Notes: generated by a model from the letters alone, not told the origin. Positions 3-12,949 are shown, counted from the first letter of the stretch. The stretch: DNA of 20,825 bases from a virus (IMGVR_UViG_3300035670_001434:1-20825); one strand, 5' to 3'. Made by a program: numbers and translations.

Positions 3-734
3 GGCCTGTTCGGCCGCAACGGCAACCAGGAAACCCAGGTCGCCGAATGCGCCATCCGCCTGATGGCCGGCATGGAGGCCGGGTTCTCCCCGTTCGCCAG
101 CGCCACCGGCGTTCACATCATCAACGGCCGGCCGGCGTTCAGCTCCAATCTGCTGGCCCAGGCTGTGCGGCGCCACCCGACCTACGACTACCGGGTGGTT
201 GAGAAGTCCGCCAAGGTCTGCCGGATCCGGTTCCTCGCCAACGGTGAGGTGCTGGGCGAGGAAACGTTCACCATTGAGATGGCCGAACGGGCCGGCCTGC
301 TCAAGAACCCGACCTGGAAGGCCTACCCCGAGGCCATGCTGTTCAGCAGGGCCCTGACCGCCGGGATGCGGACCCACTGCCCCGACGCGCTGGGAGGCCA
401 CACGCCGTACACCCCTGACGAGATCGGCGGGGAGGTGGTCCCCGTGACCGTGGCCGATGCCACTCCTGAGCCCCAGGCCGACCCTGTTCAGCAGGCCCAG
501 CAGGTCTGCGATGCCGCCGGCCTCACTGCAGACGGCGTGATCGCGTTCTGCCTGCTGGTCAGCAGCGGGAAGATCGCCGCGCTGGCTGATCTGCCGGCGA
601 AGGTGCTCGACCGGATCATCCAGCAGGGGATCTCCGCCGAGACCGTGGCGAAGTGCAACGGCACACCCGAGCCAGACCCCGACCCCGAGCCGGACCCGAT
701 CGACGACGACCTGCCCGCCGCCTGGTCCGTGTGA
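3..734 (+). CDS. RecT-like single-strand annealing recombinase, 5' end outside window
   Basis: The frame is open to the left edge, so the start codon lies upstream; 243 residues are visible. Segments resembling phage RecT-type proteins include a hydrophobic 'LMAGMEAGFSPF' stretch, 'GVHIINGRPAFSSNLLAQ', 'HPTYDYRVVE' and, most diagnostic, 'NPTWKAYPEAMLFSRALTAG' followed by 'YTPDEIGGEV'. Proteins of this family anneal complementary single strands during phage recombination and work with SSB, whose gene follows 37 bp downstream. The C-terminal third is less conserved and ends in a Pro/Asp/Glu-rich repeat tail (PDPDPEPDP). The family call is by pattern recognition; a different annealase class is possible. 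A partner exonuclease, if there is one, would lie left of the window. Confidence 0.75.
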   Translation, partial: GLFGRNGNQETQVAECAIRLMAGMEAGFSPFASATGVHIINGRPAFSSNLLAQAVRRHPTYDYRVVEKSAKVCRIRFLANGEVLGEETFTIEMAERAGLLKNPTWKAYPEAMLFSRALTAGMRTHCPDALGGHTPYTPDEIGGEVVPVTVADATPEPQADPVQQAQQVCDAAGLTADGVIAFCLLVSSGKIAALADLPAKVLDRIIQQGISAETVAKCNGTPEPDPDPEPDPIDDDLPAAWSV

Positions 735-771: not shown

Positions 772-1239
772 ATGAACGAACTCCTGACACAGCTGATTCA
801 GTGCAACCAGTGGCGATTCATCGGCCGCCTCGGTGCCGACCCTGAAATGCGGTACTTCGAGTCTGGCTCCAGCGTCTGTAATGCCCGGCTGCTGGTCAAC
901 AAGCCCGGCCAGAAACGGGACGACGGGCAGAAGCCCTATTCGTTCAAGCTCGAACTTTGGAACGACAAGGCCCAGCAGTTCGTCGATGCCGCCGGCAAAG
1001 GCGATCTGATCGACGTTGAAGGGCGGGTCAAGACCGAGAGCTGGGATGACCGCAACACCGGCGAGAAGCGCCATGCCTTGGTGCTGACGGTACAGGGCTG
1101 GGAGGTGCTGGCCAAACCCGGTCAGAACCAGCAGGGCCAGCAGCAGTCCGCTGCACCGGCCCGCCAGGCCGCACCGGCTCAGGCGTGGAACACCGCGCCG
1201 CTGGGTGGCGACATCGACGAAGACGACGTGCCTTTCTGA
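772..1239 (+). CDS. ssb: Single-stranded DNA-binding protein
   Basis: The 155-residue protein has the standard SSB layout. An OB-fold spans roughly residues 10-110, with 'IGRLGADPEMRYFESGSSVCN' near the start and 'LWNDKAQQFVDAAGKGDLID' and 'VEGRVKT' strands. A Gln/Ala/Pro-rich flexible linker follows, then the acidic tip DEDDVPF that recruits replication and repair partners. The length is normal for a phage SSB. It coats single-stranded DNA during phage replication and recombination and probably works with the RecT-like protein encoded just upstream. The ATG at 772 is followed by a recognisable SSB N-terminus. The next gene begins 3 bp after its stop, so the two are very likely co-transcribed. 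Confidence 0.95.
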   Translation: MNELLTQLIQCNQWRFIGRLGADPEMRYFESGSSVCNARLLVNKPGQKRDDGQKPYSFKLELWNDKAQQFVDAAGKGDLIDVEGRVKTESWDDRNTGEKRHALVLTVQGWEVLAKPGQNQQGQQQSAAPARQAAPAQAWNTAPLGGDIDEDDVPF

Positions 1240-1827: not shown

Positions 1828-3210
1828 ATGCTCAAAGACAGCGCAAGCCCACTTGAAACCGCGCCATCTGCCACCACAACGCCAATCACCATGAATACAA
1901 GCCGGTCAAGTCTCTCGATTGATGTCTACACAGCAACGCAAGAGCGCTTAGATTTTATTTTCGCAAACTTCAGCCGGGTATACGTTTCGTTTTCTGGCGG
2001 GAAGGATAGCGGCGTGCTCTTAAACCTTGTTATTGATTACGTCAGAGCGCATGGGATTAAAACAAGGGTAGGTGTTCAAATAATGGACAATGAGGCGAAC
2101 TACACCCAGAGCGAAGAGTTTATGCACCGCATCATCCAGGCCAATCTAGATGTCCTGGACGTTTACTGGTGCTGCCTGCCTATTACCTTGCCCTGCACAG
2201 TTTCCTCTTACGAGATTGACTGGCAGTGCTGGGGCGAAGCTGATCGCCACCGCTGGATCAGGCCAATGCCAGCCCAAAGCTACATAGTAAATCTTGCCAA
2301 CCACCCATTTGGAGAGTTGTTTGCGGAAAACATGGACTACGCTTCATTCTGGGACATGTTTGCAGAGTGGTACAGCAAGGGAGAATCTTGCGCAAACCTT
2401 ATCGGGATTCGGACTGTTGAGTCCCTAAACAGGTTTCGCGCAATTCTGAATCAGCAGAAAGAGACAATGCAGGGTCGGATGTGGACAAAGAAAAACACGG
2501 ATCACACTTACAATTGCTATCCGATTTACGACTGGCGTACCGAAGATATTTGGACGGCAAACGCGAAGTTCGGATGGGACTACAACAAGCTTTATGACAT
2601 CTTCTATATGGCTGGCATCCCCATTAAGAAGATGCGAGTCGCTTCCCCTTTTATGTCAGAGTCCAAATCAAGTCTTGCAATGTATCGAGTTATTGACCCG
2701 GTTATCTGGGCCAGGCTGTGCGCAAGGGTTGGTGGCGCCAACTTTATGGCAACGTATGGCAAGCAATTGGACTACAAATCTTTTCGCTTACCCGCTGGCC
2801 ATACGTGGAAATCGTTTGTCAAGTTTCTCCTGGCGACCCTTCCGGAGCAGTCAAGCGTAAATTTTAAGCAGCGCTTCATTCAGTCCATCCGTTACTGGGG
2901 GCGAGTGGGGCGCGGCCTGCCTGAATACATCATTGAAGAATTGCAGCGTATTGGTATCCGGCACAGAATTAACGGCACCACAAAGCATGGAGGCAATAAT
3001 CTTCGCCGAGTAATCATCAAGGTTCCACCGGACCACCTAGATGAACTGCCGTGCCACAACAGCATGGTCACGTCTTGGAAGCGATTTGCGGTAACAATTC
3101 TAAAGAATGATCACACCTGCAAATACCTGGGCCTTGCGCCAACACAAGAGCAGCAGCGCCGACAAAAGTCCATTCAGTCTAAGTACACCAACGCATTTAC
3201 CGTCAAATGA
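1828..3210 (+). CDS. ibrA: IbrA/YbdN-like PAPS-reductase-family protein (DUF3440 type)
   Basis: The 460-residue protein has the PP-loop ATP-pyrophosphatase motif SGGKDS at residues 56-61, within 'VYVSFSGGKDSGVLLNLV'. Further segments match the E. coli YbdN/IbrA family: 'EWYSKGESCANLIGIRTVES', 'YPIYDWRTEDIWT', 'YDIFYMAGIPIKKMRVASPF' and a C-terminal 'SWKRFAVTILKNDHTCKYLG' module. PAPS-reductase-fold proteins bind ATP or PAPS-like nucleotides and often activate or transfer sulfur; the true IbrA reaction is unknown. In E. coli prophage-type loci, IbrA with IbrB (ParB-like) controls immunoglobulin-binding protein genes. ATG 1828 was chosen because GAGGGGGAG lies 8 bp upstream; GTG 1822 (overlapping the previous stop) and ATG 1891 are alternatives. 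The following ParB-type gene overlaps by 4 bp. Confidence 0.88.
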   Translation: MLKDSASPLETAPSATTTPITMNTSRSSLSIDVYTATQERLDFIFANFSRVYVSFSGGKDSGVLLNLVIDYVRAHGIKTRVGVQIMDNEANYTQSEEFMHRIIQANLDVLDVYWCCLPITLPCTVSSYEIDWQCWGEADRHRWIRPMPAQSYIVNLANHPFGELFAENMDYASFWDMFAEWYSKGESCANLIGIRTVESLNRFRAILNQQKETMQGRMWTKKNTDHTYNCYPIYDWRTEDIWTANAKFGWDYNKLYDIFYMAGIPIKKMRVASPFMSESKSSLAMYRVIDPVIWARLCARVGGANFMATYGKQLDYKSFRLPAGHTWKSFVKFLLATLPEQSSVNFKQRFIQSIRYWGRVGRGLPEYIIEELQRIGIRHRINGTTKHGGNNLRRVIIKVPPDHLDELPCHNSMVTSWKRFAVTILKNDHTCKYLGLAPTQEQQRRQKSIQSKYTNAFTVK

Positions 3211-4148
3211 AAGTTTTTAACCTCTCCGAGCTCCAGCCTGAGCGAATCGTCAAGTGCCCCAAAGGTGGTTTTACTTCTCATCGGTTGATCACTGAGAGCG
3301 ATGGCATGGGTTACAGCATGACCAAGACCATTGTTCACGCTGGCAAGGCGCACCGCTGGCACTATCAACATCACCTGGAAAGCTGTTATTGCGTCAGCGG
3401 CAAAGGCCTGCTGATTAACGAGCGAACAAAGGAGCTACACGCGATCGGCCCCGATTGTACATACGTGTTAGACCAGCACGATCCGCACGTTTTTGAGGCG
3501 CTAGAGGAAACGATACTCATTTGTGTATTCAACCCACCGCTAGTTGGAGACGAACTGCACGACGATAACGATTCGTACCCTTGGCGCTCTCCCGTCTACT
3601 CAGTCCGCAGTGTGCCAATTGAAAAGGTAACGGCCAATGACTACAACCCAAACAGCGTCGCCCCGCCAGAGATGGAGCTGTTAGAAACATCAATTTGGGA
3701 AGATGGCTACACCCAGCCCGTGGTTGTTGTTCGCGATGAGGAGCGGGACACGTATGTAGTCGTTGACGGCTTTCACAGGTTTTTAACGCTGAAAAACAGC
3801 GCCCGGATACGTGAGCGAGAGGGCGGCAGACTGCCAGTCGTGATCTTGCGAAAGGAACTACATGAGCGGATGGCTTCCACGATTCGGCACAATAGGGCCA
3901 GAGGGTCTCACAATATTGAGCTGATGAGCGTCATCGTTGCCGAGCTAATTGAGATGGGCAAGGGTGATGCGTGGATTTGCAAGCACATCGGCATGAGCCC
4001 GGATGAGTTGCTTAGGCTGAAACAGGTGACTGGCCTTGCTTCGCTGTTTCTGGGCAAGGAGTTCAGCAAGGCGTGGGACGTAGAGCAAATTGACCAAGTT
4101 TCGGAGATCTTAGACGATGAAGCTGGCGAGAGTATGGAGGCCAATTGA
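3207..4148 (+). CDS. Fusion of ectoine-synthase-like cupin and IbrB/ParB-like domain
   Basis: This 313-residue protein has two domains. Residues 1-125 resemble L-ectoine synthase (EctC) along their whole length: 'RWHYQHHLESCYCVSGKG', 'CTYVLDQHDPHVFEA', 'CVFNPPLVGDELHDD'. Glu58, Tyr86 and His94 fall where EctC metal ligands are expected, and Glu116/His118 match the EctC 'G-x-E-x-H' active-site signature. Residues 132-300 resemble IbrB/YbdM of the ParB/sulfiredoxin superfamily: 'SVPIEKVTANDYNPN', 'VVDGFHR' at 186-191, 'IRHNRARGSHN' at 226-236, then an HTH-like stretch around 250-275. The start overlaps ibrA by ATGA, so the pair is coupled. No other ectoine gene and no ParA is present, so neither ectoine synthesis nor partitioning is likely. 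The reaction is unknown. Confidence 0.85.
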   Translation: MKVFNLSELQPERIVKCPKGGFTSHRLITESDGMGYSMTKTIVHAGKAHRWHYQHHLESCYCVSGKGLLINERTKELHAIGPDCTYVLDQHDPHVFEALEETILICVFNPPLVGDELHDDNDSYPWRSPVYSVRSVPIEKVTANDYNPNSVAPPEMELLETSIWEDGYTQPVVVVRDEERDTYVVVDGFHRFLTLKNSARIREREGGRLPVVILRKELHERMASTIRHNRARGSHNIELMSVIVAELIEMGKGDAWICKHIGMSPDELLRLKQVTGLASLFLGKEFSKAWDVEQIDQVSEILDDEAGESMEAN

Positions 4149-4530
4149 CTCATGGGAGGAGATCGCTTTCAACATGTGGGGAGATGTTCCCGACCGTGCA
4201 AAATTCTTGAGAAAAGCTGTTTTGTTTACGGGAAACCATCGCCTATACGGCCGCTACATGAACAGAGTGACCGTCGAATGGCCCAACAGCTGCCTCAATG
4301 CTTTGACGGATTACAATCTAAACAGGCGAGCATGGATTGGGCATGCAGCTTGCGCTCTAGCGTTGCGCTGCCCGGAGGACGTTACCAGGGAAGCATGGGG
4401 GAAGTTAAGTCATGAGCAAAGGGTATTGGCGAACAGGCAAGCCGATAGAGCAATTCAATCCTGGGAATTGCGCTACAGAAAGAGTGTCGGAATACGTCCA
4501 AGCATGGAAGCGCCGCTGCTATTCGGTTGA
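4117..4530 (+). CDS. Conserved small companion of IbrA/IbrB loci, unknown function
   Basis: The 137-residue protein has 'SWEEIAFNMWGDVPDR', 'YGRYMNRVTVEWPNSCLNAL', 'NLNRRAWIGHAACALALRCP' and 'ANRQADRAIQSWE'. I recognise this pattern from small phage proteins, often near PAPS-reductase-type genes, but know no established function. It is helical, with invariant-looking Trp, Arg and Asn positions. The start at 4117 overlaps the cupin-ParB gene by 32 bp and has GGAG about 10 bp upstream; ATG 4174 would avoid the overlap but would remove the conserved 'SWEEI' segment. The 3' end overlaps the next gene by 119 bp, unusually long here. Confidence 0.75.
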   Translation: MKLARVWRPIDSWEEIAFNMWGDVPDRAKFLRKAVLFTGNHRLYGRYMNRVTVEWPNSCLNALTDYNLNRRAWIGHAACALALRCPEDVTREAWGKLSHEQRVLANRQADRAIQSWELRYRKSVGIRPSMEAPLLFG

Positions 4531-4744
4531 CATTCCAGACGAAGTGCCGCGCAAGGTTCAATCTAGCGGTCGGGCACCCTCCTGGAAGGCAATTGCAATT
4601 GCTATCCTGCAGAATGATCTGCAATTGCGTCAACTTGGCTTTTCACCGATTAACTGGGAAAAGCAAAAGGCAATTGCAGCTAAAGCACATTTTGCCTTTA
4701 ACGGCTATCATGGCGACGGACACCAGCTAGAGCTTTTTCAATGA
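4412..4744 (+). CDS. Free-standing paralogue of the IbrA C-terminal module
   Basis: This 110-residue protein has 'YVQAWKRRCYSVDIPDEVP' followed by 'SWKAIAIAILQNDLQLRQLG' and 'KQKAIAAKAHFAF'. The second part aligns with the IbrA-like C-terminus encoded at about 3074-3200 ('SWKRFAVTILKNDHTCKYLG'): SWK, then I-L-x-N-D, then L-G at matching spacing. It therefore looks like a detached C-terminal helical module of the DUF3440/YbdN family without the PP-loop. GGGGGAAG about 8 bp upstream supports ATG 4412; GTG 4484 is an alternative that would shorten the 119-bp overlap. It may be a partner or decoy subunit for IbrA. That role is inference. Confidence 0.7.
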   Translation: MSKGYWRTGKPIEQFNPGNCATERVSEYVQAWKRRCYSVDIPDEVPRKVQSSGRAPSWKAIAIAILQNDLQLRQLGFSPINWEKQKAIAAKAHFAFNGYHGDGHQLELFQ

Positions 4745-4935
4745 ACACCACTCACGCCGACGTGTTATCAAGCCTTGCTTCCTGGAACCTTCAGGGAATT
4801 GTTGAATGCAAGGAAGTCAAGGGTAGGACCGAATTGACTTACAAGGGTGAAGTTCAGTCTTTCCCGCACTGGCTTGCGCTTCGCCGCGTTAATCAAATTG
4901 GCGCCAATCATGTTTGCGAGCCGGACAATTTATGA
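4741..4935 (+). CDS. 64-residue protein in the Ibr-like block, unknown function
   Basis: The gene is framed by ATGA overlaps on both sides (4741 and 4932), good evidence that it is translated. The protein begins 'MNTTHADVLSSLASWNLQGI' and contains 'YKGEVQSFPHWLALRRVNQ', mixed helix and strand, with two cysteines (residues 23 and 59) far apart. It has no membrane segment or signal peptide. I do not recognise the family. Its position between the IbrA-C-like gene and the Cas4-like nuclease suggests a structural or adaptor role in the same system. Confidence 0.65.
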   Translation: MNTTHADVLSSLASWNLQGIVECKEVKGRTELTYKGEVQSFPHWLALRRVNQIGANHVCEPDNL

Positions 4936-5588
4936 CTATCGACACCACTAGCAATTTGCTTAAGAGTCGCGGCACTCCAACTGTTTGGGTAACGTGGATG
5001 GCAAAGGCGCTGTCGGACCCAGCCCAGTGCAGGCTGCCTGCCTGGACGCTTACCCGATTCAGTATCACAACAGATGACAGCTACAGCGGGGACTGGGCCG
5101 TGAAACACGCTGTGATTATCGGGAAAGTGCAGCAGCGGCTGGTAGCGGCCGGCCGAATTTCGGAAGTGGAAAAAGATGTGACTTTAATCAGTCGCACGGG
5201 TTTGCCCATTACTGGATCAATTGACGTTTGGGCGCCACAAGTTGATGGCAGCGCGGCAGTTGCGATCGACGCCAAAACCGGCAAGCACAACCCAGCGCAC
5301 CGCTTACAGGTCAATCTGTATCAGCTGATTACCAAGGCGACCGGGGAAGCCGTGATTCCGCCAAAGGGGATGCTCTCCTACCGAGATCGGGACGTTTGGA
5401 TTGATCCAGCGGAGGCGTCTGCCGAGCTCATCTCCCAGGTTGCTGAACTGATGGAGGTGATTGCCGCAGATCGCCCGCCAGCTGCAGCGCCAAGCAAGTC
5501 GAATTGCCGGTTCTGCAGCCTCAAGGGAATCTGTACTGCAGCGTGGCATGGGGACGCTCAGGCGGCGCCTATTACTGATCTTTTCTGA
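4932..5588 (+). CDS. Cas4/RecB-like PD-(D/E)XK nuclease with Fe-S-type cysteines
   Basis: The 218-residue protein contains motif II 'GSIDVW' (Asp98), motif III 'AIDAKTGK' (Asp113-x-Lys115) and motif IV 'HRLQVNLYQ' (Gln126, Tyr130), the catalytic core of RecB-family PD-(D/E)XK nucleases. Cysteines 33, 192, 195 and 201 give one distal N-terminal Cys plus C-x2-C-x5-C at the C-terminus, the arrangement that holds a 4Fe-4S cluster in Cas4 and AddB. No helicase domain is present, so it probably acts as an exonuclease, perhaps with the recombinase and SSB encoded at the left of the window or with the Ibr-like proteins. The start overlaps the previous stop (ATGA); TTG 4914 in the same frame is less likely. 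Confidence 0.85.
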   Translation: MTIDTTSNLLKSRGTPTVWVTWMAKALSDPAQCRLPAWTLTRFSITTDDSYSGDWAVKHAVIIGKVQQRLVAAGRISEVEKDVTLISRTGLPITGSIDVWAPQVDGSAAVAIDAKTGKHNPAHRLQVNLYQLITKATGEAVIPPKGMLSYRDRDVWIDPAEASAELISQVAELMEVIAADRPPAAAPSKSNCRFCSLKGICTAAWHGDAQAAPITDLF

Positions 5589-8981: not shown

Positions 8982-9281
8982 TCACCCCTCCACCACGTAC
9001 AGGGAGCAGTCACGGGCGAACCCCGGACCCTCTTCGATCGGGTCGGGGAATCCCAAGCTGCACGTCTCACCGCGCCATTCCTGGCAGCGCTCGCACGACG
9101 GGTCACCGGGCCCCGGCGGGGGGCAGTAGCCCTCGGGCAACACGTCCCGGTAGATCTTGCCGACACGGATCTGCCGGATGGTTTCCCGGCTGCAGCCGTA
9201 GAGCTTGCCGAGTGCGCGATGCGTTTCGGTCGAAGTGATGATGGCCGCCACCTGCTCGGCCGTGAACTTCCGGGTGCTCAT
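8982..9281 (-). CDS. HTH protein with C-terminal four-cysteine module
   Basis: Residues 5-45 form a HTH ('FTAEQVAAIITSTETHRALG', then 'YGCSRETIRQIRVGKIYRDV'), as in small phage DNA-binding proteins. The C-terminal half holds Cys63-x2-Cys66-x7-Cys74-x17-Cys92 with aromatic and proline residues between them ('CQEWRGETCSLGFPDP', 'GFARDCSLYV'), probably a zinc knuckle, comparable to that of gene 1646-1825. A regulator or DNA-end-binding protein is plausible. The start overlaps the dCTP deaminase stop (ATGA). Confidence 0.75.
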   Translation of the reverse strand: MSTRKFTAEQVAAIITSTETHRALGKLYGCSRETIRQIRVGKIYRDVLPEGYCPPPGPGDPSCERCQEWRGETCSLGFPDPIEEGPGFARDCSLYVVEG

Positions 9282-9790
9282 CCCTTGCTCGCGTGCACGG
9301 TGGTGTGACCGTTGTAGCGGCCAGTCTCCGCGTAGCTGGTCAATGGCTGTTCAGCCATCAAATGAAACACAATCTGCCCGATTTTCATGCCGGGCCACAG
9401 CAGCTGCGGCCAAAGCTGGCGGTTGTTGCGCAGCTCCATGGTGAGCACCGATCCATTCCACCCGGGATCCAGCCACACGGCGAGAGCCTGATCCAACCCT
9501 TCGCGCGCGCGGCTCGACTTGAGCCGAAACTCCCCGGCGATGTCGTCGGGGATGTTGAACACCTCGATGGTGTCCGCCAGACAGAACTGCCCCGGCCTGA
9601 GCTCATACGGATCATCCTGGCTATGCCGGTGCAGCGGATAGGGCACGAGCTCAGGCGACTGCGCCGATTCGATCAGCAACGTGCCACCCAGCCGCACGTC
9701 AAGCGACGCCGGGTTGATCAGCGCCGGATCCCAGCCCACCACCATGCCACCTTCGCAGCGGCTGCGGATCTGCCAATCAGCGAGGATCAC
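9278..9790 (-). CDS. dcd: dCTP deaminase / dUTPase-family enzyme
   Basis: The 170-residue protein matches the Dcd family: 'ILADWQIRSR' near the N-terminus, 'INPASLDVRLGGTLLIE', 'FRLKSSRAREGL' (residues about 88-99), 'WLDPGWNGSVLTMELRN' with Glu119 at the place of the Dcd catalytic Glu, and 'PGMKIGQIVFH'. It converts dCTP to dUTP; some homologues also hydrolyse dUTP to dUMP. It thereby supplies dTMP precursors for phage replication or removes dUTP. The GTG start at 9790 overlaps the previous stop (GTGA) and sits just ahead of the family's usual N-terminal motif; starts further upstream would be longer than family proteins. Confidence 0.9.
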   Translation of the reverse strand: MILADWQIRSRCEGGMVVGWDPALINPASLDVRLGGTLLIESAQSPELVPYPLHRHSQDDPYELRPGQFCLADTIEVFNIPDDIAGEFRLKSSRAREGLDQALAVWLDPGWNGSVLTMELRNNRQLWPQLLWPGMKIGQIVFHLMAEQPLTSYAETGRYNGHTTVHASKG

Positions 9791-10056
9791 TTGATCGTCT
9801 CCAGAACGTGTTTTGCAAACGCCGTGTGCGTCATCACGGCGTGATTTCCCGGCGGCCGGCCGTAGCTGTCCTGCCACCAAGCAGTGAACGCAGCACCGAT
9901 CAGCTCATCGCGCTGTTGCTGGCGCTCAGCCTCCGTCAGGCCGGTGTAGGTGCCGTGCCGACGGTGCGCCGGATCATGCCGGCCATCGGCGGTGTAGAGC
10001 TCCTCAAGTCGATCTTGCCGAGCGGTTTGCTCGACCGGGTTGCAATCGTGGCTCAT
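9787..10056 (-). CDS. Small conserved protein, 89 residues
   Basis: ATG 10056 overlaps the stop of the preceding gene (ATGA). The sequence 'ARQDRLEELYTADGRHDPAH', 'HGTYTGL' and 'AAFTAWWQDSYGRPPGN' has the look of small proteins encoded in picocyanobacterial genomes and phages, where 'LY..DGR...HP.HG.YTGL' recurs. No function is known to me. It is soluble, with no membrane segment or metal motif. Confidence 0.7.
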   Translation of the reverse strand: MSHDCNPVEQTARQDRLEELYTADGRHDPAHRRHGTYTGLTEAERQQQRDELIGAAFTAWWQDSYGRPPGNHAVMTHTAFAKHVLETIK

Positions 10057-11358: not shown

Positions 11359-11904
11359 TCATTTGATACTCCAACTCCGCCGCTCCACCAGGGAGCAGCC
11401 GTCAATCTGCTGGCCCTGCTTCAAGGCTGCAGCAATGGCCGTCTTGTCGGCGCTGTAGACGGTCTTCACCCGCTGGAACTGCTCCGGCAGGTCGGCTACT
11501 TCGGCGGTGAGATCCACGGCAGTGACGCGGCGGCTGGTGAGCTTGTGCTCGGGCAGCTGATAGGAGGTCTCGTCAGGGATCGCCTTCTGCAGCGCCGCCA
11601 CCAGCCGATCCTGCAGAATGTCGGCCTGCTGCTCATCAGCGGCGGCCAGATCAGCCAGCGCCTGGGCGCGGGCCTTGCGGGCATCACGGCGGACCCGAAG
11701 CGAGTCGATCACCCAGCACCAGGCGTCGGCCTTGGCGAGGATGGCCTGGCGGTTGTCGGCTTCGACTGAGATCAGGCCTTCAAGGGTGGCAGTGGCCTGC
11801 GCCACCACAGCAGGGTCATCGCTGAACAGGTCGGCAGCGGCGGCGTCGATCTGCTGCTGCAGACGGAGCGCGTCTCCGGTTAGGTCGTAGAGGGTGGCAG
11901 GCAT
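11359..11904 (-). CDS. Siphovirus Gp157-family protein
   Basis: The 181-residue protein follows the Gp157 pattern: 'MPATLYDLTGDALRLQQQID' at the N-terminus, a long central coiled-coil region ('KADAWCWVIDSLRVRRDARK'), then 'KLTSRRVTAVDLTAEVADLP', 'FQRVKTVYSADKTAIAAALK', 'QGQQIDGCSLVERRSWSIK'. Gp157 proteins occur in the early region of siphoviruses; a Streptococcus thermophilus phage homologue has been linked to resistance against phage DNA, but the activity is unknown. ATG 11904 was chosen because family proteins begin 'M..LYDL'. It heads the leftward operon, 21 bp downstream of copy 3 of the recurring element. Confidence 0.85.
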   Translation of the reverse strand: MPATLYDLTGDALRLQQQIDAAAADLFSDDPAVVAQATATLEGLISVEADNRQAILAKADAWCWVIDSLRVRRDARKARAQALADLAAADEQQADILQDRLVAALQKAIPDETSYQLPEHKLTSRRVTAVDLTAEVADLPEQFQRVKTVYSADKTAIAAALKQGQQIDGCSLVERRSWSIK

Positions 11905-11925
11905 AGGCGAGTGGTGCAGACCCGC

Positions 11926-11957
11926 CAATCGTACCGGTTAGGTTCCGGATCTGCACC
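11926..11957 (-). promoter_or_regulatory. Copy 3 of recurring CCGGAACCTA element, in a divergent intergenic region
   Basis: Read on the minus strand it begins GGTGCAGATCCGGAACCTA, with CGGTACGATT following, closely matching copy 2 at 5892-5923. It ends 21 bp before the Gp157 start. On the plus strand the same stretch shows TAGGT and ACCTA as an inverted pair, and TAAGAT at 11958-11963 could be a -10 box for the sigma gene. It may therefore control both divergent genes. Confidence 0.45.
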
Positions 11958-11989: not shown

Positions 11990-12949
11990 GTGCCCGCCAG
12001 CTCTAGCCAGTCCTGGTGGCTCGACTCGATCGGTCGGATCCCCCTGCTCACGCCAGCCGAAGAGATCGAGCTGGGCACGGCGATTCAGCGGTGGCAGACC
12101 CATCCCGACCCGTGCCCGCCAGGGATCAGGCGCCGCGGCCAGCGGGCTCGGGACCGGTTCGTGAGTGCGAACCTGCGGCTGGTGGTGGCGTACATCTCCC
12201 GCCGCTGCCACCGGCTGGCCAAGGCCCACGACCGGGAGGATCTGATCCAGGCAGGGAACCTGGGCCTGATCACGGCAGCGGAGCGGTTCGACCCCAGCAA
12301 GGGGTACCGGTTCAGCACTTATGCGTATTGGTGGATCCGGCAGGCGATCAACCGCTGGGTTGATCAGCACGGCCGGGCCATTGCGATTCCCGGCAGCCAC
12401 TGCCAGCACCTGAGCAGGCTGGAGGCCGTGACCCAGCGACTGGAGCGGGAGCTGAACCGCAGCCCCACGCAGGCGGAGATCGCCGCTGAGCTGGGCGTGT
12501 CGCTCAGGGTGTTTGAGCAGGTGCTTGAGAACGGCAGGGGGATCGCCAGCCTTGACCAGGTCGTGACCGATGACGGACTGGAGCTGGGGTCGCTGTGCGC
12601 CACCTGGGACCGCAGCCCTGAGGATGAGGAAGAACAGCGGGAACGGTGGCGCCAGGCGGAGGAACTGCGGAACCTGATCGCCCGGCTGGCGCCGCAGGAT
12701 CGGCGGCTGCTGTCGCTGGCCTGGGGCCTCGATGGGGTGGAGGTGCCCAGGCCGGAGCTGGCCCAGCAGGAAGGGCTCAGCACCCGGGCGCTGGAGGTGC
12801 GGCTGAACGGATTACAGGCGGCGCTCGCGTCGCAGTCCGTCCAGCTGGTGTTGGTGGCGGTGCAGAGGGTGATTCCATCACCACGGATCCGGCAGCGGCG
12901 CAGACGGCGAGAGCTAGGCGTGGTGCAGCTCAGGTTGCAGGTGGCGTGA
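11990..12949 (+). CDS. Phage-encoded sigma-70-family factor
   Basis: The 319-residue protein has region 1.2-like 'WLDSIGRIPLLTPAEEIELG' (10-29), region 2 with 'NLRLVVAYIS' (61-70), 'DLIQAGNLGL' (84-93) and 'RFSTYAYWWIRQAI' (107-120), region 3 'RLEAVTQRLERELNRSPTQA' (143-162) and region 4 at about 233-285. 'GRIPLLTPAEEIELG' strongly resembles cyanobacterial group 2/3 sigmas. About 14 residues (38-51) expand the 1.2-2.1 junction, and the last 35 residues are unusual and Arg-rich. It would direct host RNA polymerase to particular promoters, perhaps phage late genes. GTG 11990 fits the alignment. It stands alone on the plus strand. Confidence 0.9.
   Translation: MPASSSQSWWLDSIGRIPLLTPAEEIELGTAIQRWQTHPDPCPPGIRRRGQRARDRFVSANLRLVVAYISRRCHRLAKAHDREDLIQAGNLGLITAAERFDPSKGYRFSTYAYWWIRQAINRWVDQHGRAIAIPGSHCQHLSRLEAVTQRLERELNRSPTQAEIAAELGVSLRVFEQVLENGRGIASLDQVVTDDGLELGSLCATWDRSPEDEEEQRERWRQAEELRNLIARLAPQDRRLLSLAWGLDGVEVPRPELAQQEGLSTRALEVRLNGLQAALASQSVQLVLVAVQRVIPSPRIRQRRRRRELGVVQLRLQVA

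Follow-up and report, generated by a model that had tools for sequence, protein, structure and literature searches.

What is the role of IbrA-type genes, which are widespread in phages and routinely labelled as PAPS reductase or sulfur auxiliary metabolism, when they stand in a compact block of overlapping genes? This question is raised by a viral sequence of IMG/VR (IMGVR_UViG_3300035670_001434), analysed here over its whole length of 20,825 bases and termed "the window"; the contig is complete, and the phage genome is perhaps represented only in part. Between positions 1828 and 5588 its plus strand carries six overlapping genes, here termed A to F, which an earlier note on this DNA, made from the sequence alone, had read as one unit built around an IbrA/IbrB-like pair and a Cas4-like nuclease, with a perhaps sulfur-related chemistry. 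We report that the conserved unit consists of genes A to D, that gene C represents a new family, and that gene D ends in a canonical sliding-clamp-binding motif, a feature that is new here.

A Conserved Four-Gene Module

The module and its motif are laid out as follows:

1828..3210, plus strand: gene A, IbrA/YbdN-like protein of the "long" IbrA type (Pfam and PHROG matches, alignment and AlphaFold model)
3207..4148, plus strand: gene B, EctC-like cupin (residues 1-127) followed by an IbrB/ParB-like domain (residues ~128-305)
4117..4530, plus strand: gene C, new all-helical family, third partner of IbrA/IbrB
4412..4744, plus strand: gene D, stand-alone paralogue of the IbrA C-terminal (DUF3440) domain, 110 amino acids, with a C-terminal clamp-binding motif
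4724..4738, plus strand: clamp-binding motif QLELF at the C-terminus of D (...HQLELFQ), a consensus match

The profile searches agree with the gene assignments of the earlier note and sharpen one of them. Gene A matches DUF3440 (Pfam, 7e-54, over 181/182 positions) and, above cut-off, PAPS_reduct (7e-9), as proposed for an IbrA-like protein, and it adjoins a ParB-type partner in gene B (PHROG_2159, 1e-76), as proposed for an IbrA/IbrB pair. The Pfam match of gene D is to the C-terminal part of DUF3440 (1.1e-5), which fits the suggested paralogue of the C-terminal module, and gene F matches PDDEXK_1 (2.1e-9), which fits a Cas4-like nuclease. What had been called a cupin is a cupin, and more exactly an ectoine-synthase domain (Pfam Ectoine_synth 5e-37; PDB 5bxx 1e-25), with gene B scoring above the NCBIfam ectoine synthase cut-off (134.5 against 128 bits).

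All six plus-strand genes are present where they had been placed, and four of their joins are short overlaps as described (A/B 4, B/C 32, D/E 4 and E/F 4 nucleotides), whereas C and D overlap by 119 nucleotides. D starts within C and out of frame, and because this start lies at a constant 295 nucleotides from that of C in 76 of 84 loci, we regard the C/D overlap as genuine and not as an annotation slip. Across this long overlap (window 4412-4530), conservation is seen in both reading frames. The block is AT-richer than both sides, as had been noticed, with 50.5% G+C against 63.4% in the flanks, and over 74 related loci the module lies on average 5.5 points under its flanks. Purifying selection acts on the genes: relative to the window, nonsynonymous divergence (dN) is 0.10-0.43 for genes A-D and 0.43-0.76 for genes E and F, and synonymous divergence (dS) is above 1 or saturated throughout A-F.

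A scan of IMG/VR with gene B gave 227 relatives, 80 of which were compared. The order A-B-C-D (window 1828-4744) is kept in the relatives that reach far enough, and the overlaps between the genes recur with it in about 70 other phage contigs; carriers of the module include Pseudoalteromonas phage XCL1123 and Mycobacterium phage Gaia. Among the distinct loci of the scans with B and with C taken together, 70 have A-[EctC::ParB]-C-D and 10 have A-EctC-ParB-C-D. Leaving aside contigs with a cut end, EctC never appears without D and a long IbrA, and in the IbrA tree the EctC carriers fall into a single clade with strong support. The identity of the module and the co-conservation of A-D are established at the level of these sequences, and in the open-licence papers searched we found no description of the EctC-ParB fusion, of C or of a clamp link.

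A Sliding-Clamp Link in Gene D

The published clamp-motif consensus is QL[S/D]LF or QxxLF, and the Hda peptide QLSLPL is a tight binder (PMC12309361); the D tails QLELF and QLELPL fit this motif and resemble the Hda peptide. Scored as Qxx[LMI][FLIM] or Qxx[LMI]x[FLI] at the protein end, and with D proteins clustered at 70% identity on the body without the tail (n = 29), the motif closes D in 23/29 families, as against 77/3602 (2.1%) of other reading-frame tails (binomial 2e-33). Counted otherwise, it is present in 37/40 unique D sequences and in 78/82 loci of the EctC clade, while the same motif is found in the tails of only 7/85 IbrA, 3/84 C and 0/74 EctC::ParB proteins. It also closes the D-like domain in a few short IbrA proteins of D-less loci (QKDLF in L223; QMDLL in L229 and L256).

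The D of locus L079 has no such motif; instead, its reading frame continues into a sliding clamp (PHROG_947, 1e-34). This D-clamp fusion (L079:4074-5333) is seen on a single contig, and a stop codon lost through sequencing error is possible. Clamp homologues are phage-encoded in 18 D loci, L079 included; PHROG_947 confirms six clamp genes from D loci and C-only loci, of which two lie beside C-only systems, and a clamp gene adjoins IbrA in L085 and lies 0.7 kb downstream of F in L059. Docking of D on a sliding clamp is thus predicted from its tail, and as a prediction it is well supported.

Gene C, a New Helical Family

Gene C has no match in Pfam, PHROG or NCBIfam. Its structure model is helical and confident (pLDDT 92), and a fold search against PDB gave nothing above the noise of helical bundles (best Foldseek E 2.5, best VIA-align Z 3.5). 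Scans seeded with C recover more than 500 homologues, and 133 distinct C loci, from the B and C scans combined, were compared. C adjoins IbrA and ParB in every complete locus among them, the exceptions being cut by contig ends, and in the IbrA tree its carriers fall into three separate branches. The gene orders number at least five and include ParB-C-short IbrA (33 loci), C-short IbrA-ParB (8) and C-D-long IbrA-ParB (4), with rarer ones besides. Because the searches seeded with C recovered it only beside IbrA and ParB, C is, judging from its neighbourhood, a real partner of IbrA and IbrB.

Two Candidate Enzymes in Genes A and B

Gene A combines a PAPS-reductase fold (adenine nucleotide alpha hydrolase) carrying an SGGKDS PP-loop with DUF3440. 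In a 39-sequence alignment the PP-loop is invariant or almost so, and the invariant residues are S56, G58, K59, D60, S61, D87, E89, R195, E198, S199 and R202. The AlphaFold model (mean pLDDT 78) aligns over residues ~31-285 to FAD synthase (VIA-align Z 15.3) and to PAPS/APS reductases and ATP sulfurylase (Z 13.4-14.4). FAD synthase transfers AMP and moves no sulfur, and PAPS reductases usually carry the redox cysteine motif ECG(L/I)H at their C-terminus, which is absent from the A sequence. With a fold equally near FAD synthase and this motif missing, the sulfur-related chemistry proposed earlier is not borne out. Membership of A in CysH or Dnd was considered and is ruled out by the model scores, as A reaches only 16.4-16.5 bits with the CysH (PAPS/APS reductase) models (cut-offs 154-165) and 22.7 bits with the DndC model TIGR03183 (cut-off 290.4).

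In gene B, the iron ligands E57, Y84 and H92 of the cupin are kept in 86/86 EctC domains, and so are S23, R25, T40 and Y52. The position of Trp21 is Phe in 73/86 domains and unaligned in the other 13/86, and Asn38 is replaced in 86/86, by Thr in gene B. The roles of these residues have been described for EctC, including that of Trp21, which is required for activity and conserved in enzymes of ect clusters (PMC6344544). Since Trp21 and Asn38 are changed in a site that otherwise keeps its iron ligands and most of its substrate contacts, a working metal site is predicted that acts on a substrate other than the ectoine precursor; ectoine production as such is disfavoured by these two replacements.

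The ParB-type domain is near-invariant at N147, P148, D187, G188, H190, R191 and in the block 225-233 (TIRHNRARG) among 133 sequences. Proteins of the ParB fold can act as nucleoside triphosphate (NTP) switches with diverse nucleotides (PMC12704722) or as free-serine kinases (PMC5120207). EctC and ParB are separate genes in 12 other loci. The IbrA clade of the EctC carriers also contains L189, in which a peroxiredoxin-like gene, recognised by eye and in this one locus, holds the EctC position between IbrA and ParB (L189:3853-4614). Sulfiredoxin, which repairs peroxiredoxins, has a ParB fold. In L121, Fusobacterium phage phiFN37, a second ParB-like gene stands beside a queuine tRNA-ribosyltransferase near the IbrAB genes (L121:8748-9266).

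Genes E and F and the Recombination Block

Around the module the window carries further features:

63-734, plus strand: RecT-like annealing protein (PHROG_561, 1e-36)
772-1239, plus strand: single-stranded DNA-binding protein, SSB (PHROG_44, 9e-30)
4741..4935, plus strand: gene E, 64 amino acids, goes with F, non-core; in only three other loci (L053, L059, L065)
4932..5588, plus strand: gene F, Cas4/RecB-like PD-(D/E)XK nuclease of the RecT-SSB recombination block, non-core
11990-12949: sigma-70-type factor, phage-encoded (PHROG_351, 6e-53)

Gene E has no family match. Gene F also matches Pfam Cas_Cas4 (2.5e-6; 28.1 bits, cut-off 22.7), stays below the cut-off of the Cas4 equivalog (51.0 against 65 bits), and gave no match in a search of the phage collection. 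Of more than 80 related loci only two, L059 and L065, have E and F complete, L053 having E alone, and the nuclease is therefore ruled out as a core part of the system. The neighbourhood comparison that the earlier note had suggested thus finds, by a narrow margin, two other genomes that keep all six genes together, while the unit that is generally conserved is A-D. Neither does the suggested coupling of the nuclease to the IbrA-like pair stand, as F accompanies the module in three contigs including the window. The order is RecT-SSB-A-B-C-D-E-F in L059 and SSB-A-B-C-D-E-F in L065, whose start is cut off; because F is always found in this (RecT-)SSB-[ABCD]-E-F order, it is best read as a phage recombination nuclease, and A-D lie within the recombination block to which it belongs.

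Elsewhere in the window, positions 9278-9880 encode a dCTP deaminase (PHROG_1663, 1e-47), also found in 20 of the compared loci, and positions 11359-11928 a Mu Gam-like DNA end-protection protein (PHROG_253), common to L065.

What Could the Module Do?

We put at about even the chance that A-D encode a clamp-recruited, IbrA/IbrB-type enzyme complex, most likely modifying phage DNA during replication. The reading starts from what is established in the sequences, namely the gene composition, its co-conservation, the conserved metal site, the clamp motif and one clamp fusion. From there we infer a single complex that acts on DNA and the kind of product it makes, because of the enzyme-like conservation, the clamp tethering and the ParB-family partners that recur in the Dnd and Dpd systems; the earlier idea of a DNA-directed chemistry holds up to this extent. 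In such a complex D, from its motif and the fusion, would be an adaptor, with a body like the C-terminal domain of IbrA and a tail on a phage or host clamp. A would use ATP through its PP-loop and activate the substrate by adenylation, or possibly transfer sulfur; the ParB-type domain of B may bind or use an NTP; the EctC-type iron cupin of B would close a ring through loss of water on a substrate unlike the ectoine precursor; and C could form a structural bridge linking IbrA, IbrB and D. More tentatively, this may amount to a replication-coupled hypermodification in which PP-loop enzyme, ParB-type protein and EctC-like cupin build a ring-containing DNA base or side group on strands emerging from the replisome. 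If so, it would be, to our knowledge, the first DNA modification with an EctC-type cyclase or with a dedicated sliding-clamp adaptor of such kind.

A gene for an SF2/SNF2-type helicase is nearby in 39/85 EctC loci and in 25/32 C-less IbrAB loci; an SF2 helicase takes the position after D in many other relatives, and one of SNF2 type is often directly upstream of C-less IbrAB pairs in bacteria and some phages. Several points weigh against a DNA-modifying complex, however. Replication regions of phages commonly contain genes for helicases, clamps, RecT and SSB near one another, which makes their proximity weak evidence, and no clamp or helicase gene was found within the window fragment itself. 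Clamp binding rests on short motifs and one fusion in one metagenomic contig, and the D of Gaia and a few further D tails lack the motif. In the literature found, IbrA, IbrB and DUF3440 are without a demonstrated biochemical activity.

Since IbrAB is known as an activator of prophage genes, clamp-coupled gene activation is the foremost rival reading, where the complex would be a phage transcription co-activator linked to the clamp by D. We think this unlikely, though it draws on a report that IbrA and IbrB activate prophage eib genes (Sandt 2002, as cited in PMC7649339). The small size of D (110 amino acids) with its C-terminal clamp motif would suit such a role, and the sigma factor of the window (PHROG_351) recurs in 11 related loci. 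The late-gene factors of T4 offer a parallel for clamp-linked activation of transcription. Yet sigma genes are present in only these 11 of the searched loci, many contigs being short; the eib effect could follow indirectly from a change in DNA; and the intact iron-cupin cyclase site and the conserved ATP PP-loop are left unexplained. Fainter still is the prospect of an anti-host or defence cargo, in which D would halt replication of the host by capturing its clamp, or the module and F would together restrict competing phages. Some phage proteins are known to block the clamp of their host, the module is AT-rich against its flanks, and the Cas4-like F adjoins it in the window; against this, F is missing from nearly all relatives, D is fused to or encoded together with phage clamps, and the scanned window neighbours have no match to defence models save one cross-match of a sigma factor.

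Least probable, and very much so, is the role that the usual labels imply, with A as a PAPS reductase for host sulfate assimilation and B making ectoine-like osmolytes. PHROGs labels the family of A as auxiliary metabolic PAPS reductase, and B does pass the ectoine-synthase cut-off. Moreover, Table 1 of PMC9068703 has ybdN (IbrA) and ybdM up together with the cys sulfate-assimilation regulon in an E. coli citR mutant, a hint at sulfur demand which is there not ascribed to YbdNM; the cys response could as well be unrelated. On the other side, A is without ECG(L/I)H and reaches 16.5 bits where the CysH model asks for 165, Phe takes the place of Trp21 in each of the 73 aligned domains, with Asn38 replaced throughout, and a clamp tag on D would make no sense in such a role. 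Returning to the clamp-recruited complex, the company of a ParB-type protein, of C and, in one large clade, of an EctC-like cupin and a clamp adaptor shifts IbrA towards DNA chemistry at the replication fork. The long-unexplained IbrAB pair becomes cheaply testable in the cultured phages XCL1123, Gaia and Nebkiss, and a new DNA base modification may come to light.

Comparison with Known Systems

Among the near counterparts are Gaia gp103-107 and the locus of XCL1123, which share all four genes of the module, with 67-70% identity in A and 56-60% in C. Their records already carry the labels "PAPS reductase" and "ectoine synthase/ParB multidomain protein", with C and D unannotated; Gaia has one additional gene between B and C and a D without clamp motif, and XCL1123 has EctC and ParB as separate genes. 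With IbrA/IbrB (YbdN/YbdM) of enterobacterial prophages and other phages the module shares the PAPS_reduct and DUF3440 domains of A and the adjacent ParB-type partner (a 4-nucleotide overlap in the window), a pairing found in every complete locus. It differs by the EctC domain in B and the clamp-binding tail on D, and beside an E. coli-type IbrA/IbrB (L120) C and D were not found. The cupin resembles ectoine synthase EctC in its domain, in all three iron ligands and in most substrate-contact residues, and departs from it by Trp21 to Phe, Asn38 to Thr and the ParB fusion.

In Dnd the PAPS-reductase-like DndC goes with the ParB-family DndB, and Dpd has the ParB-like DpdB (PMC12839542). Both resemble the module in joining a ParB-family protein to nucleotide-activating chemistry on DNA, and in Dnd the partner is PAPS-reductase-like as well. 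The comparison made earlier therefore stands as an analogy and not as membership: scores at DndC or DndB level are lacking (22.7 bits against 290 for DndC), no other Dnd or Dpd protein is among the scanned window proteins, and neither system has a counterpart of the cupin, C or the clamp adaptor. Finally, whereas the body of D, a DUF3440 C-terminal domain and no known replication factor, sets it apart from known clamp-binding proteins, its tail is a peptide of the Hda type (QLSLPL), and in one locus D is joined to the phage sliding clamp (PHROG_947) itself.

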